Shown in pieces: positions 38,885-43,816 of a DNA stretch of 64,000 bases. Below the pieces are notes generated by a model. That model worked only from the letters and a program-made list of their open reading frames with translations, did not search any database and was not told the DNA's origin. Position 1 is the stretch's first letter. Each line of letters opens with the position of its first letter. This DNA comes from Bacteroidota bacterium. Its GTDB lineage: Bacteria > Bacteroidota > Ignavibacteria > Ignavibacteriales > Melioribacteraceae. The DNA lies in NCBI GenBank assembly GCA_018818065.1, contig JAHISV010000005.1, forward strand, positions 540,527-604,526, written 5' to 3'. Both the position numbers and the translations under genes were made by a program.

Positions 38885-38986
38885 CTAGACAGTAAAAAAT
38901 AGTAGCGCAGTAATTAACGCGAAGAGCAAATCAATTAATAGTAGCGGTCTGAAGCTATTAAAAAAATCACATGTGGAATGTGTCAT
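38885..38986 (-). CDS. 33-residue putative membrane peptide
   Basis: An open frame below usual length limits: MTHSTCDFFNSFRPLLLIDL then LFALITALLFFTV. It has a short polar head and one hydrophobic helix. A GGAG lies five bases before the ATG, and the ATG is 13 bases after the stop of the NAD(P)-binding gene at 39000, so it is placed as the last gene of that operon. A hairpin follows shortly. No similarity known to me; could be a chance frame. Confidence 0.45.
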   Translation of the reverse strand: MTHSTCDFFNSFRPLLLIDLLFALITALLFFTV

Positions 38987-38999
38987 ATAAACTCCGGGA

Positions 39000-39674
39000 T
39001 TATCCTGTTGTTAAGTTTTTTGCTGAGGCTTGAATGTCAGTACATTTCAGAATCTTTTTATTAAACCCTCTTTTAGTAACATTTATCATTGATAAACCTA
39101 TTTCTTCAAGAGTGGAAACATATTTAGGGAATATCAATTTCCAAAGGGGGTAAAAGGGAGCAAATAAGGTATATGCCTTATAAGCATTATTCAATCCCGT
39201 TGTCGGTTGAATATATCCGGGGCGGAACATATACGAATCCTTAAAAGGGAGTTTAAGTAAATCATTTTCTGTTTTTCCCTTTATGCGGGCCCACATGCTT
39301 TTCCCCTTCTCGGTACTGTCCGTACCAACACCAGATACATAGGTAAAAACCATATCAGGATTGATTGTTAGCATCAGGTTTGCTATGTGCATTGTCAGGT
39401 CATAAGTTATTCTTTTATAGGCAGCTTCTTTCAAACCAACTGATGAAACACCCATGCAGTAATAAAATGCGTTGTATCCTTTCAGTTCATCCGATATGGA
39501 TGAGAAATCAAAAAAATCTTTGAGAATAATCTCTTTCAATTTGGCGTGCTGAACCCCGCATGGTTTGCGGTTAACAACTATCACTGATTCAACGTCAGGG
39601 TGGCTAAGAGATTCATGCATCACTCCTTCACCCACCATACCTGTAGCACCTAAAATTACTGCTTTGATTTTCAT
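39000..39674 (-). CDS. NAD(P)-binding epimerase-like protein (atypical SDR)
   Basis: 224 residues with the Rossmann motif ILGATGMVGEGVMHE and an atypical-SDR body (NAFYYCMGVSSVGLKEAAYK, TYVSGVGTDSTEKGKSMWAR, FRPGYIQPTTGL). Related proteins bind NADPH and act as reductases or regulators. The exact reaction is unknown. Third large gene of an operon (MBL hydrolase, SDR, this, then a small peptide) under two TetR operators. Confidence 0.8.
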   Translation of the reverse strand: MKIKAVILGATGMVGEGVMHESLSHPDVESVIVVNRKPCGVQHAKLKEIILKDFFDFSSISDELKGYNAFYYCMGVSSVGLKEAAYKRITYDLTMHIANLMLTINPDMVFTYVSGVGTDSTEKGKSMWARIKGKTENDLLKLPFKDSYMFRPGYIQPTTGLNNAYKAYTLFAPFYPLWKLIFPKYVSTLEEIGLSMINVTKRGFNKKILKCTDIQASAKNLTTG

Positions 39675-39693
39675 TCTCTAACCCAAAAATTCT

Positions 39694-40590
39694 TTAGAAG
39701 TTGTAGTTAACTTTTGTAAGTGTTTCTGAAACTGACCATAGCCGGCCGGCGATAGCTTTATCTTTCGATAATGGATTTGAGTCGACTTTAACAGGGTAAC
39801 CTTTCCATTCCTGCCAGCCATCAGGTCCATAGTAATCGCCGCTCATAGCTTTTTCATCAAAAGCCGCACGTAATGTTGGCAGAGTTCCTTTCTCAGTTTT
39901 CATAGCAAAGAATCCATTAAGAAACTCGAACAATCCACTGTGTCGCTGAAGGTCTGTTGCTGTCCAGCCAGGATGAGCCGCTGTAATTTTTACGCCGGAG
40001 CCGAAAGCTTCTAATTTGCGTTTCAGTTCATAGGTGAAGTAGAGGTTAGAAATTTTACTGTCACCATAAGCACGCCAGGCTTTGTATTTTCTATTCTCCC
40101 AGTTCAGGTCATTAAAATTTAAGTTACCATATTTATGAGCGGCACTGGCAACATTAACAATTCTGGAATTTGGTGTGTTTGACAATATTTCTAATAATTG
40201 TCCTGTAAGAGCAAAATGACCCAGGTGGTTTGTTCCAAATTGCAATTCAAATCCATCCGATGTTTTCGAGTAAGGAGGAATCATTACACCCGCGTTATTG
40301 ATGAGTAAGTGTAATTTGCTGAATGTACTTTTAAACTTTGTGGCAAAGTCAGAAACAGACTGTAAGTTGGATAAATCGATTTCCATTACCCGCACGTCTG
40401 CGTTTTCTTTTTGAGCTCTGATTTTGTTTGCCGCAGTATTACCTTTTTCCATACTTCTAACTGCTATTATCACGGTCGCGTTTTTATTAGCAATAACTCT
40501 CGCAGCTTCATAACCAATTCCACTGCTGGAGCCGGTTACTATTACTATTTTACTTGTTTGGTCAGGTATATTCTCTACAGTCCAATTCAT
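39694..40590 (-). CDS. Short-chain dehydrogenase/reductase (retinol-dehydrogenase-like)
   Basis: 298 residues. TGSSSGIGYEAARV is the cofactor loop, LLINNAGVM and the catalytic serine strand NVASAAHKYG follow, and YGDSKISNL carries the catalytic Tyr and Lys. The length and body resemble RDH/WWOX-like SDRs acting on hydrophobic alcohols or aldehydes. AAAGGA seven bases upstream of the ATG. It lies between the metallo-hydrolase and NAD(P)-binding genes. Confidence 0.88.
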   Translation of the reverse strand: MNWTVENIPDQTSKIVIVTGSSSGIGYEAARVIANKNATVIIAVRSMEKGNTAANKIRAQKENADVRVMEIDLSNLQSVSDFATKFKSTFSKLHLLINNAGVMIPPYSKTSDGFELQFGTNHLGHFALTGQLLEILSNTPNSRIVNVASAAHKYGNLNFNDLNWENRKYKAWRAYGDSKISNLYFTYELKRKLEAFGSGVKITAAHPGWTATDLQRHSGLFEFLNGFFAMKTEKGTLPTLRAAFDEKAMSGDYYGPDGWQEWKGYPVKVDSNPLSKDKAIAGRLWSVSETLTKVNYNF

Positions 40591-40602
40591 GTCGTTTTCC
40601 TT

Positions 40603-41754
40603 TTATTCGGTTACTATAATATTATCGTTGTTCATAAATTCTTCCCACCAAAGCTTTGTTGGAATATATTTATCATAAATTGTTGTCTCACCTACAATTG
40701 GCATTGAGACCTTTACGTTTTTTCCCCAAGCTTCATTTACCAGTCTATCCATCGGTTCGTACCAGGGGTGAAGTGCTAAATTGAAAGTAGCCCAATGTAT
40801 TGGGTGTAAAACTTCACCTTTTAAGTCAATATGAGCCTGAACCGTTTCTTCAGGATACATATGAATATGATGCCATTTTTCGTTATAGGCGCCGGATTCC
40901 ATAAAAGTCATATTGAATGGTCCATATTTTTCGCCAATCACTTTGAAGCCTTCTGAGTACCCGCCATCACCGCTGAAAAATACTTTGTGGTTTGGTCCTT
41001 CTATCACCCACGAAGCCCATAGTGTTTCGTTACGATCCGTAATCCCGCGTCCGGAAAAATGTTGCGCTGGAGTTGCGGCAATCATTAGGTCCTCATTAAT
41101 CTTTATTTCATCCCACCAGTCAAGTTCCGTTATTTTTTCCCTCGGCACACCGGCATTTTCAAGCTCTGCTCCTACTGCCAATGGCACAATAAATCGGTCA
41201 CTTTTCTCGTTTAGCCGTTTGATGGATTTTATATTCATATGATCATAGTGGTTATGCGAAATGATAACAACATCAATCTGTTCCAACTCATTTATATCAA
41301 GTGGTATCTCACCATTGTAACGGCTGGGTCCGAAGAACGTCATGCTTTTTTCAAAAACCGGGTCGGTTAATATTTTATAACCGTCGATGTTAATCATAAG
41401 GGAAGAGTGACCTAACCAGGTAGAGTTAAGCTGATTTCCATCCTTACGATTAAATTCTGTAAGATCTACTTTCATAATGGGTAGCGAATCACCTGGCGAA
41501 CGGTCGTTGCCCATAAAAATAAAGTCCCACATAGTACTCAACATGGACCCAATTCCGGGCTGCTCCCATGCAACTTTATTCTGGAATTTTCCATCCCTAA
41601 AATTCGACGACTTCTCAATTTTACTCAACTTTGAATCTCCTTCAATATATGTTGCTGAAGAACATGATTGATTACTGATCGTGACAACCGCGGCAATTAA
41701 CAGAACTAAATACACGTTTATTTTCATGATCTTTTTTATTTTATTTCTCTTCAT
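40603..41754 (-). CDS. Metallo-beta-lactamase-fold hydrolase lipoprotein (NAPE-PLD/UlaG-like)
   Basis: 383 residues. A type II signal (KINVYLVLLIAAVV...NQSC) precedes the MBL core: STWLGHSSLMI, IISHNHYDHMN (HxHxDH), FSGDGGYSEGF and HPIHWATFNLALHPW, the last typical of N-acyl phosphatidylethanolamine phospholipase D relatives. It likely hydrolyses a lipid or other ester in the periplasm. The ATG at 41754 or at 41727 could be the start; neither has a strong ribosome site. One TetR operator lies 12 bases upstream of 41754. Confidence 0.85.
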   Translation of the reverse strand: MKRNKIKKIMKINVYLVLLIAAVVTISNQSCSSATYIEGDSKLSKIEKSSNFRDGKFQNKVAWEQPGIGSMLSTMWDFIFMGNDRSPGDSLPIMKVDLTEFNRKDGNQLNSTWLGHSSLMINIDGYKILTDPVFEKSMTFFGPSRYNGEIPLDINELEQIDVVIISHNHYDHMNIKSIKRLNEKSDRFIVPLAVGAELENAGVPREKITELDWWDEIKINEDLMIAATPAQHFSGRGITDRNETLWASWVIEGPNHKVFFSGDGGYSEGFKVIGEKYGPFNMTFMESGAYNEKWHHIHMYPEETVQAHIDLKGEVLHPIHWATFNLALHPWYEPMDRLVNEAWGKNVKVSMPIVGETTIYDKYIPTKLWWEEFMNNDNIIVTE

Positions 41755-41765
41755 TTTAGCAGCTT

Positions 41766-41781
41766 AAATGAATATTCATTT
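41766..41781. promoter_or_regulatory. TetR operator copy 1 (hydrolase-SDR operon)
   Basis: AAATGAATATTCATTT is a perfect 16-base palindrome between the tetR stop and the hydrolase start. Its outer half-sites AAATGA and TCATTT, with a 4-base spacer, are identical to those of the tetR promoter operator at 42383-42404. Confidence 0.7.
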
Positions 41782-41801
41782 AGTTAATTAAGCAAATTTT
41801 T

Positions 41802-42374
41802 TTATACCTTTATTGCATCCCAGGCCATTTCAAAAGCTATATCTTTTAACTCATCTGTCAGTTCCAGTCCATGGCACGTGCGTGAATTTGAAAGTAACAT
41901 TACCGGATAGAAAGCGAAAATTGTAAGCAGCTGTGGATTGACAGATTTGATCTTTCCATCTTCCACTCCTTTCAAAAAGACACTCATAACAGGTTGGAAA
42001 TGCTTCTCCAATTCTTCATGATTCACTAACCCTGTGTAGGGCGAGTTTGCAAATTGCTCTGTGAAATTAAAGTAATCCTGATGAATTGAGATGTATTTGA
42101 AGGCATTTAACCAAACCCGGCGTAATATATCTTTAAGAGGAAGATCACTGTCAAATCCGGTTAGTATGGATTGACTCATTTTCTGCTTAATATTTACGTA
42201 AGTTGAAACTAAAAGATCTTCCTTGTTCTTGTAGTAAATGTATATTGTTGCAGGCGAGACGTTTGCCTCTTTTGCAATTTTGGCTACCGAGCTTGCTACG
42301 AATCCGATTTCGTTAACTAATTTAATCGTTGCTTCATGGATTGCATCTACTTTATGTTCATCTCTAATTCTCAT
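41802..42374 (-). CDS. TetR-family transcriptional repressor
   Basis: 190 residues from the ATG at 42374. The N-terminal helix-turn-helix is ATIKLVNEIGFVASSVAKIA then ANVSPATIYIYYKNKEDLL. The ligand-binding part is all-helical and has no recognised ligand motif. The start at 42374 is preferred over 42395 because 42395 lies inside the operator and between the promoter hexamers, while 42374 coincides with the predicted transcription start, which would give a leaderless message. The operator at its own promoter implies autorepression, and the second copy downstream implies control of the hydrolase, SDR and NAD(P)-binding genes. Confidence 0.9.
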   Translation of the reverse strand: MRIRDEHKVDAIHEATIKLVNEIGFVASSVAKIAKEANVSPATIYIYYKNKEDLLVSTYVNIKQKMSQSILTGFDSDLPLKDILRRVWLNAFKYISIHQDYFNFTEQFANSPYTGLVNHEELEKHFQPVMSVFLKGVEDGKIKSVNPQLLTIFAFYPVMLLSNSRTCHGLELTDELKDIAFEMAWDAIKV

Positions 42375-42380
42375 GGGTCT

Positions 42381-42409
42381 AAAATAAATGATCATTCATT
42401 TATTGTCAA
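42381..42409 (-). promoter_or_regulatory. tetR promoter with operator in the -35/-10 spacer
   Basis: On the minus strand TTGACA (42409-42404), 17 bases, then TATTTT (42386-42381). The operator AATAAATGA-N4-TCATTTATT (42383-42404) fills the spacer. The predicted start, seven bases past the -10, is 42374, the A of the tetR ATG. Confidence 0.75.
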
Positions 42410-42499
42410 GTTTTTTCTGTTTTTTTTTGTTCGGTTTGGATAAGAGGGAAAAATTCGCTTTTTTATGTTCGTTCTGAATAATATTGAGAAGAGGATTTA

Positions 42500-43660
42500 A
42501 TGGATCTACTGAGTGGTAAAAGTATTAAAGCGTTGAACACATTTAGAAAAATTCTCCATGAAAACGCTGAATTGGCATTTAACGAAGAAAAAACAGCGAA
42601 TATTTTGAATCAGTTTATTTCAAACTACTATCCTAACGAAATTATCTCAAATGTTGGCTCAACTGGATTGCTTTTTGTATACAACGGTAATGAGGCAGGC
42701 CCCACAGTTTTGGTTAGAGCCGATATGGATGCTTTGCCAATTAATGAGACTAATAATTTTTCTTATAAATCCCTGAATAAAAATGTATCGCATAAATGTG
42801 GACATGATGGACACATGGCAATTGTTGCTGGTTTGGCGATGCTCTTTAATGTAAATCGCTCCTTTAAAGGCAAAGTTGTTTTAATGTTTCAGCCTGCCGA
42901 GGAAACAGGGGAAGGCGCTTTAAAGATTTTATCAGATAAAAAATTTGAATCTGTTAAGCCGGACTATGTATTGGCATTACATAATTTGCCGGGCTTTAAA
43001 AAGGGAGAAATAATTTACAAGGAAAATCATTTTGCTGCTGCCTCTACTGGTTTTATTGTTAGGTTATTCGGAAAGACCTCTCATGCAGCGGAACCGGAAA
43101 ATGGGAATTCACCTTCGGAGGCCATGGTTGAAATAATTTCAACCCTTAATCAGCTCATTGAAAAAAATAGAGATGTGCTTGTTGATTTTTCACTCATCAC
43201 GGTCGTTCATGCCAGACTGGGTGAAAGGGCATTTGGAACAACGCCAGGTTATGCTGAAGTGATGGCAACTTTGCGGAGTTTTAGAAATGACGACATGGCA
43301 AAACTCAAAGATTTATCAAAAAAAATATCCATACGAATTGCAAAGAAGTATGGATTAGAGATTAAAATTGAGTGGACAGAAGAATTCCCCGCAACTGTTA
43401 ATGAAAAAGTTTGTGTAGATTTGTTGAGAGAAGTGATTAGTGAAAATAAGTTAAATAACAAAGGGATTGCTGAGCCATTTAAATGGTCAGAAGATTTTGG
43501 ACACTTTACAAATAACTTCAAAGGAATTTTATTCGGTTTAGGCGCGGGCAAAAATACGCCGCAATTACATAATCCCGATTATGATTTTCCAAATGAGATT
43601 ATAAAGACAGGAGTTATGGTTTTTTATTCTCTTATTAAAAAGTTACAGTCAATTTCGTAA
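42500..43660 (+). CDS. M20-family amidohydrolase (hippurate / N-acyl amino acid hydrolase type)
   Basis: 386 residues. Metal-binding and catalytic motifs of the M20D group are present: RADMDALPI, HKCGHDGHMA, QPAEETGEGA, LALHN and the dimerisation-domain SHAAEPENG. It removes acyl groups from amino acids using two divalent metals. No signal peptide, so cytoplasmic. Divergent from tetR; its substrate is not evident. Confidence 0.88.
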   Translation: MDLLSGKSIKALNTFRKILHENAELAFNEEKTANILNQFISNYYPNEIISNVGSTGLLFVYNGNEAGPTVLVRADMDALPINETNNFSYKSLNKNVSHKCGHDGHMAIVAGLAMLFNVNRSFKGKVVLMFQPAEETGEGALKILSDKKFESVKPDYVLALHNLPGFKKGEIIYKENHFAAASTGFIVRLFGKTSHAAEPENGNSPSEAMVEIISTLNQLIEKNRDVLVDFSLITVVHARLGERAFGTTPGYAEVMATLRSFRNDDMAKLKDLSKKISIRIAKKYGLEIKIEWTEEFPATVNEKVCVDLLREVISENKLNNKGIAEPFKWSEDFGHFTNNFKGILFGLGAGKNTPQLHNPDYDFPNEIIKTGVMVFYSLIKKLQSIS

Positions 43661-43722
43661 ATGAAGTCCGAAAGATCAGTCATTGCTTTCCTGCCGGGGC
43701 TTTAGGAGGTTCTTCGCTAACC

Positions 43723-43740
43723 TCAACCCTTAAGGGTTGA
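43723..43740. repeat. 18-base perfect palindrome
   Basis: TCAACCCTTAAGGGTTGA is perfectly self-complementary. It lies between two convergent genes just before a terminator. Just upstream, GAGGTT and AACCTC (43706-43723) could form a second small hairpin. Palindromes of this kind are known as dispersed repeats in Bacteroidetes-group genomes. Confidence 0.55.
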
Positions 43741-43749
43741 AGTAGAAAT

Positions 43750-43781
43750 AAAAAAGGCGGATCTCAAAATCCGCCTTTTTT
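43750..43781. terminator. Bidirectional rho-independent terminator
   Basis: Stem AAAAAGGCGGAT/ATCCGCCTTTTT with loop CTCAAA; T runs on both strands. It serves the convergent amidohydrolase (+) and ornithine aminotransferase (-) genes. Confidence 0.9.
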
Positions 43782-43816
43782 AACATCTAAGTACTTTATA
43801 CTATGTACTGCTCTTT

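Follow-up and report, generated by a model that had tools for sequence, protein, structure and literature searches.

The window analysed here, i.e. the whole 64,000-nt stretch of DNA, comes from a Melioribacteraceae Bacteroidota bacterium (GCA_018818065.1, JAHISV010000005.1 540,527-604,526, forward strand). On its minus strand a tetR gene is followed by genes for a metallo-beta-lactamase-fold hydrolase, a short-chain dehydrogenase/reductase (SDR) and an epimerase-like protein, and two palindromic operator candidates flank tetR (Table 1). Between the tetR and hydrolase ORFs lie 47 nt, where no terminator-like site was found on the minus strand; positions 38900-43800 gave no match to a known RNA family at gathering score. 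The hydrolase aligns with a NAPE-PLD chain (4qn9; E=1.1e-54, residues 45-342) and carries the HxHxDH motif as HNHYDH; it is NAPE-PLD-like by similarity of the catalytic domain, and hydrolysis of N-acyl phosphatidylethanolamine is a putative activity. The protein probably starts at 41727 (MKINVYLV..NQSC, which resembles a lipoprotein signal) rather than at 41754, and an atgaaaat start at the equivalent position is common to several hydrolase orthologs. The divergent M20 amidohydrolase gene has a relative in just one of 77 related loci (L120, 29% identity), and so probably lies outside the circuit. A terminator-like hairpin of 15 pairs (43749-43782) separates it from an aminotransferase-like gene.

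Table 1. Features of the tetR locus, in window coordinates.
Feature	Position	Strand	Remarks
NAD-dependent epimerase-like protein	39000..39674	-	last gene of probable operon
SDR	39694..40590	-	NF004846 oxidoreductase, 406 bits (cut-off 268)
Metallo-beta-lactamase-fold hydrolase, NAPE-PLD-like	40603..41754	-	lipoprotein-like N-terminus; start perhaps 41727
Operator site 2 (candidate)	41765..41782, core 41766-41781	-	perfect 18-bp palindrome TAAATGAATATTCATTTA; 19 nt past tetR stop
tetR	41802..42374	-	190 aa, TetR_N + TetR_HI_0893_C; start inferred from orthologs
Predicted transcription start	42374	-	A of tetR ATG; inferred from -10 spacing
-10/-7 element TATTTTAG	42379..42386	-	TATTTT hexamer 42386-42381; promoter scan and orthologs
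Operator site 1 (candidate)	42383..42404, core 42386-42401	-	AATAAATGA-ATGA-TCATTTATT; 9-bp arms touch both promoter hexamers
-35-type hexamer TTGACA	42404..42409	-	-33 TTG in Bacteroidota terms; CTTGAC(A) in logo of 51 loci chosen for 5-7 nt gap
M20 amidohydrolase	42500-43660	+	divergent, 126 bp from tetR start

The regulator and its operator sequence

The product of tetR belongs to the TetR family (TetR_N, PF00440, 45.6 bits against a cut-off of 24), with a C-terminal domain matching TetR_HI_0893_C. A structure model (pLDDT 94.4) adopts the all-helical TetR fold and matches TetR structures, the closest solved relative by both sequence and fold being Maqu_1417 (3pas; 35% identity, TM 0.88), with HI0893 (3qkx) ranking below it. 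These two proteins share the TetR fold with the present regulator, and no report of a regulon or inducer for either was found in the open-licence literature; nor was a paper on this regulator among the matches listed there. The protein would bind a palindromic operator as a dimer and be released from it by a ligand, the operator itself being predicted from conservation.

A preliminary description of this DNA had proposed two operators with identical half-sites, and both cores are indeed exact copies of AAATGA-N4-TCATTT, which occurs at these two places alone in the window. Matches with up to two mismatches number 18 in the window against 15.8 expected; since relaxed matches are at chance level, the exact pair alone is informative, and relaxed palindromes (1-2 mismatches) were dropped as candidates for further operators. 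The 3.95 Mb genome holds four exact places, against one for the reversed pattern; the third copy lies at the end of a hisI/E-like ORF, which overlaps its last 6 bases, and the fourth inside an ORF. A broader operator pattern found 14 places outside the tetR locus in 13 genomes. Six of these are inside ORFs and five more in open frames of at least 241 aa behind an ATG, two lie in 414- and 456-aa frames before any ATG, and one (L048) is in no frame longer than 121 aa. Because 11 of the 14 places are inside long frames behind a start codon, the regulator looks local to its own locus, which is the reading we prefer, and a wider regulon is disfavoured; given the three places that are not clearly coding, some relatives may have targets elsewhere.

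Promoter, operator and start codon of tetR

The TTGACA and TATTTT hexamers are present upstream of tetR with the 17-nt spacer that had been described. The pair scores 10/12, the highest in the 5.1 kb scanned, where comparable promoter-like pairs show no excess (14 observed, 16.7 expected); taken alone the hexamers are no better than chance, and it is the comparison between genomes that carries the case for a promoter here. The operator had been said to fill the spacer exactly. This proves slightly too neat, as one of its 16 bases belongs to the -10 hexamer and the other 15 to the spacer (42387-42403). The longest tetR ORF (197 aa) starts at an ATG at 42395, inside the spacer, and this position had been given as the upstream limit for the 5' end of the message. 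The eighth codon of that ORF, at 42374, is the most likely start of tetR and fits both a leaderless reading and the homologs; the limit therefore moves to 42374, and the placement of the predicted start base on the A of the tetR ATG stands.

The TATTTT hexamer ends 6 nt before this ATG, i.e. the -10 element is placed for transcription to begin at the start codon itself. In Flavobacterium johnsoniae promoters, as described in PMC6847099, the -7 element spans -12 to -5 with its first T at -12, and setting TATTTTAG at those positions puts +1 at 42374. Against the Bacteroidota sigma-A pattern (TAnnTTTG at -12 to -5, TTTG near -33) TATTTTAG is off by one base, and the orthologs L009, L012 and L014 carry the exact TAnnTTTG as TATTTTTG. 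Three of nine orthologs have an in-frame stop directly before the ATG, within the would-be upstream extension, and residues M1, R2, D5 and K8 of the TetR N-terminus are invariant in 34 rows of the alignment. Of 200 shuffles of the first 95 nt of the message, 197 fold better than the actual sequence.

Within 400 kb of the same genome plus the window, none of 199 genes (those of 309 with more than 60 bp free upstream) has a TTG-N20-TAHHTT pattern whose first T lies 11-14 nt ahead of the first ATG, under a first-ATG rule that misses tetR itself. A second control, using E. coli hexamers and the best start of other TetR genes in four genomes, is a weak one: 0 of 25 reach 9/12 at leaderless spacing (highest 8), and two of four members of the present tetR family do so, the other two scoring 7 like several controls. 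A separate group of TetR genes (L186, L188, L189, L191, L192), which start with ATGAGA or ATGCGC, has a TTGAAT...ATTCA-like palindrome a short distance upstream and is possibly a second leaderless family.

Conservation of the layout in near and distant relatives

Near relatives were sought in 97 genomes, including the organism's own, at a match threshold of 1e-15. A tetR match is present in 14 of them, and the 13 others comprise nine orthologs at 52-61% identity, three homologs at 37-38% and one at 28%. All nine orthologs keep the TTG, the operator, a TATTTT-like (TAnnTT) hexamer and the ATG with spacing constant to within a base, the gap from hexamer to ATG being 6 nt (5 nt in one). All nine also have a palindrome just past the tetR stop, some with imperfect arms, and the gene that follows is the hydrolase in eight and the SDR in one (G014). 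The 37-38% homologs (L015, L016, L017) keep the two-site layout with a TGAATGAACATTCATTTA-type operator and another downstream gene, no match to the hydrolase, SDR or epimerase being found in their stretch. At the most distant homolog (28%) the promoter-operator block is absent.

We extended the comparison by a named-genome search, taking 80 of 118 relatives. Three loci (L128, L135, L149), in which the match does not begin at residue 1, were dropped, and the remaining 77 with the window make up 78 rows; this set overlaps with that of the 97 genomes, since eight of the 77 loci evidently lie on contigs already included there. Site 1 is found within two mismatches in 66/78 rows and within four in 73/78, and site 2 within two mismatches in 55/75. 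Control windows of the same loci matched the site 1 pattern in 2/1560 cases and the site 2 pattern in 5/1560, a contrast that is somewhat flattering given that the patterns were derived from the sequences being counted. The -10 position, which in this count is fixed by the operator register rather than searched for, ends 5-8 nt before the start in 62/78 rows, 57 of which have TA...T there. A TTG at 17-nt spacing accompanies the operator in 55 of the 73 rows with a site and is one base further off in eight. In a logo of 51 chosen loci (at least 48% identity, at most two mismatches, gap 5-7 nt) both promoter elements are visible at site 1 and the DNA further upstream is merely A-rich.

The short-gap arrangement is found in Thermodesulfobacteriota, Ignavibacteriota, Bacteroidota, Myxococcota, Calditrichota, Planctomycetota, Caldisericota, Bacillota, Pseudomonadota and candidate phyla, with the reservation that many rows are metagenome bins and some labels may be wrong. 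Seven rows outside the 62 have gaps of 9-10 nt (four Asgard archaeal rows at 9 nt; L098, L110 and L130 at 10 nt); the phylum tally labels all seven leaderless, although promoters in Asgard archaea do not work in the same way and the register seems to be shifted in L098 and L110. The Asgard homologs (L134, L137, L138, L144; 34-38% identity) carry a similar palindrome near the ATG. In four gammaproteobacterial Halomonas/Onishia rows (L143, L146, L147, L148) a similar operator lies 30-33 nt upstream of the start, a purine-rich stretch being present in some, and site 1 is absent from five of the 78 rows (two Cloacimonadota, Holzapfeliella and two Cobetia). On a quick tree the phylum labels require 18 changes against a minimum of 10, which is compatible with transfer or with paralogy and proves neither. 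Cys167 was considered as a redox switch and rejected because the residue is not fixed: among rows at 48% identity or more, the window counted with them, 50 of 57 have a cysteine there, as do 4 of 21 less similar rows.

Downstream of tetR the gene content varies. Among 71 loci with at least 1600 nt past the start, 41 have a same-strand hydrolase or SDR (37 of 50 at 48% identity or more, 4 of 21 below), and, with the window included, an SDR relative is found in 25 and an epimerase relative in 7. The hydrolase match in two loci (L054 and L055; G008 and G053) carries one in-frame TGA each. Ten first downstream genes were scanned in loci of the remaining kinds and gave a FAD-binding protein, an aldo-keto reductase, an alpha/beta hydrolase, a ferredoxin-like protein, a metallo-beta-lactamase, an FMN oxidoreductase, a membrane-fusion protein, an MFS transporter, another SDR and one gene without a match. 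This mixture looks like the handling of reactive or hydrophobic compounds. NAPE-PLD is described as also acting on aldehyde-modified lipids (PMC12214272). A lipid ligand, to which the NAPE-PLD-like similarity of the hydrolase is the one pointer, would be one option among several.

A predicted self-repressing operon and its alternatives

The conservation across phyla strongly supports the central proposal of the preliminary description, in which one local regulator has a pair of matched operators and the tetR message lacks a leader, both of these being predictions. We consider it likely that the tetR, hydrolase, SDR and epimerase genes form a self-repressing operon with a leaderless tetR, in which site 1 lies on the promoter and site 2 is auxiliary. 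Judging from sequence and conservation, a TetR dimer on site 1 would lie across the spacer and the -10 region and shut the only evident promoter. RNA polymerase would initiate at the tetR AUG or within 1-2 bases of it, giving leaderless translation of tetR, which, by analogy with AcuR, may hold the repressor at a low level compared with the enzymes. Bound at site 2, the same protein would most likely repress the enzyme genes further by acting as a roadblock for polymerase coming from tetR. An inducer would free both sites; at a guess, it is one of the hydrophobic or reactive compounds on which the enzymes act.

The direct and closest precedent for every proposed step except site 2 is, by analogy, the acuR-acuI-dddL operon of Rhodobacter sphaeroides, a leaderless, self-repressed TetR operon whose 5' end was mapped exactly at the AUG and whose repressor is translated at a low level from that message (PMC3017554). 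There too a TetR-family gene comes first, the operator overlaps the promoter (TTGATT/TATTAT) and a Shine-Dalgarno sequence is lacking, and a similar layout is reported in diverse bacteria (PMC3017554). The two differ in the operator (TAATAGAC-n6-GTCTATTA in acuR, AAATGA-n4-TCATTT here) and in the partner genes (acuI and dddL, as opposed to hydrolase, SDR and epimerase-like genes), and the passages of PMC3017554 cited here mention no second operator and describe an acuR-acuI gap without promoter activity. With another operator and no acuI among its neighbours, the present locus is not an AcuR-type operon; new relative to AcuR are the operator, the partner genes and the conserved second site. 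The tetR gene of Tn1721 and lambda cI are arranged differently, and cI comes from another protein family. Both are repressor genes with leaderless messages, as cited in PMC3017554.

An alternative origin of the tetR message, further upstream and with a leader, would reduce the conserved block to an operator and make TTGACA and TATTTT coincidental. The lack of an excess of promoter-like pairs in the region is in keeping with this, as are base rates: according to the published figures drawn on here, 3.7% of 5' UTRs in B. thetaiotaomicron are shorter than 10 nt, 5.5% of messages in F. psychrophilum are leaderless and 87% of leaders in F. johnsoniae exceed 10 nt, i.e. most measured Bacteroidota messages carry leaders. 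In Paenibacillus riograndensis leaderless messages are rare: two such transcripts are reported, and 99.2% of 5' UTRs are at least 10 nt long (PMC5670726). They are predicted to be less unusual in deltaproteobacteria, where 8 of the 33 genomes have leaderless genes, averaging 15.8% of genes in those genomes (PMC3160421). However, a TTG and a TA...T are conserved with the operator at fixed spacing across phyla, with merely A-rich DNA upstream, and the spacing can change, as in the four relatives with a 30-33 nt gap and a similar operator, yet is short in most others. A leadered message is, on this evidence, very unlikely. The regulator might also be a FadR-type acyl-CoA sensor, with the circuit responding to fatty acids. 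FadR (NF053878) is the best NCBIfam equivalog match (55.3 bits), made through the DNA-binding part, B. subtilis FadR (YsiA; 3whb/3whc) shares the TetR fold and aligns with the present TetR in sequence as well, and the present operator is similar to the box bound by Bacillus FadR (AATGA...TCATT). The match falls far under the model cut-off of 200 bits, however, and covers residues 13-101 of the 197-aa ORF, the C-terminal ligand domain matches the HI_0893 family, and the gene context differs, with no beta-oxidation gene among the ten first downstream genes scanned. The protein is accordingly not a member of NF053878, and a fatty-acid circuit of this type seems quite improbable.

The second operator that had been placed ahead of the hydrolase is there, and a conserved promoter of the hydrolase's own is not seen: a logo of 46 chosen loci (at least 48% identity, at most two mismatches, site at most 40 nt from the stop) displays the palindrome and a AAAATTTT tract 10 nt upstream, and no conserved TTGACA- or TTTG-like element or clear -10. 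Because conserved promoter hexamers are missing, site 2 probably serves as an auxiliary operator within a tetR-hydrolase-SDR operon rather than as the operator of a separate hydrolase promoter, and a promoter with unusual elements is possible. Were site 2 to control a second regulated promoter, tetR and the enzyme genes would be separate parallel units; the conservation of the site, with 34 of the 55 matches lying 17-20 nt past the tetR stop, is in line with this, the AAAATTTT tract could serve as a promoter element, and logo positions 16-20 are similar to TATAA. Nevertheless the TTGACA-like or TTTG element is missing just where site 1 has one, the short gap between the tetR and hydrolase ORFs holds no terminator-like site, and the corresponding acuR-acuI gap is described as inactive (PMC3017554), all of which makes a second promoter rather unlikely. 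Cooperation of the two sites by DNA looping, with dimers ~620 bp apart, is the least probable reading. The distance between matched sites is near constant (617-622 bp in 36 of 53 loci), but so is the length of tetR itself, and the other 17 spacings (626-717 bp) are scattered with no evident helical phase. A phase statistic over the 53 loci (R 0.43-0.56) mostly reflects the 617-622 group and does not decide the matter; phasing thus does not support looping, and an auxiliary operator remains the preferred role for site 2.

More tentatively, and with much less confidence than in the operon itself, the locus may be a portable cassette, in which promoter, operator and start codon are fused within ~45 bp ahead of a leaderless repressor gene and a further operator after the gene acts as a roadblock. 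On this reading the cassette would function after transfer between phyla since translation of a leaderless message does not depend on a ribosome-binding site suited to the host, and, if true, it would have gathered differing detoxification-type genes in each host (hydrolase, SDR, aldo-keto reductase, FMN oxidoreductase, efflux). Few messages lack a leader in the Bacteroidota and Paenibacillus transcriptomes for which figures are cited above, and one regulator keeps a predicted leaderless layout at near-fixed spacing in Bacteroidota, Paenibacillus and several other phyla. Its relatives would therefore form a natural test set for why repressors stay leaderless (i.e. low repressor yield, host independence or promoter-operator geometry), with the four 30-33 nt relatives as a built-in leadered contrast, and the conserved second site behind tetR offers a simple case for testing repression inside an operon.
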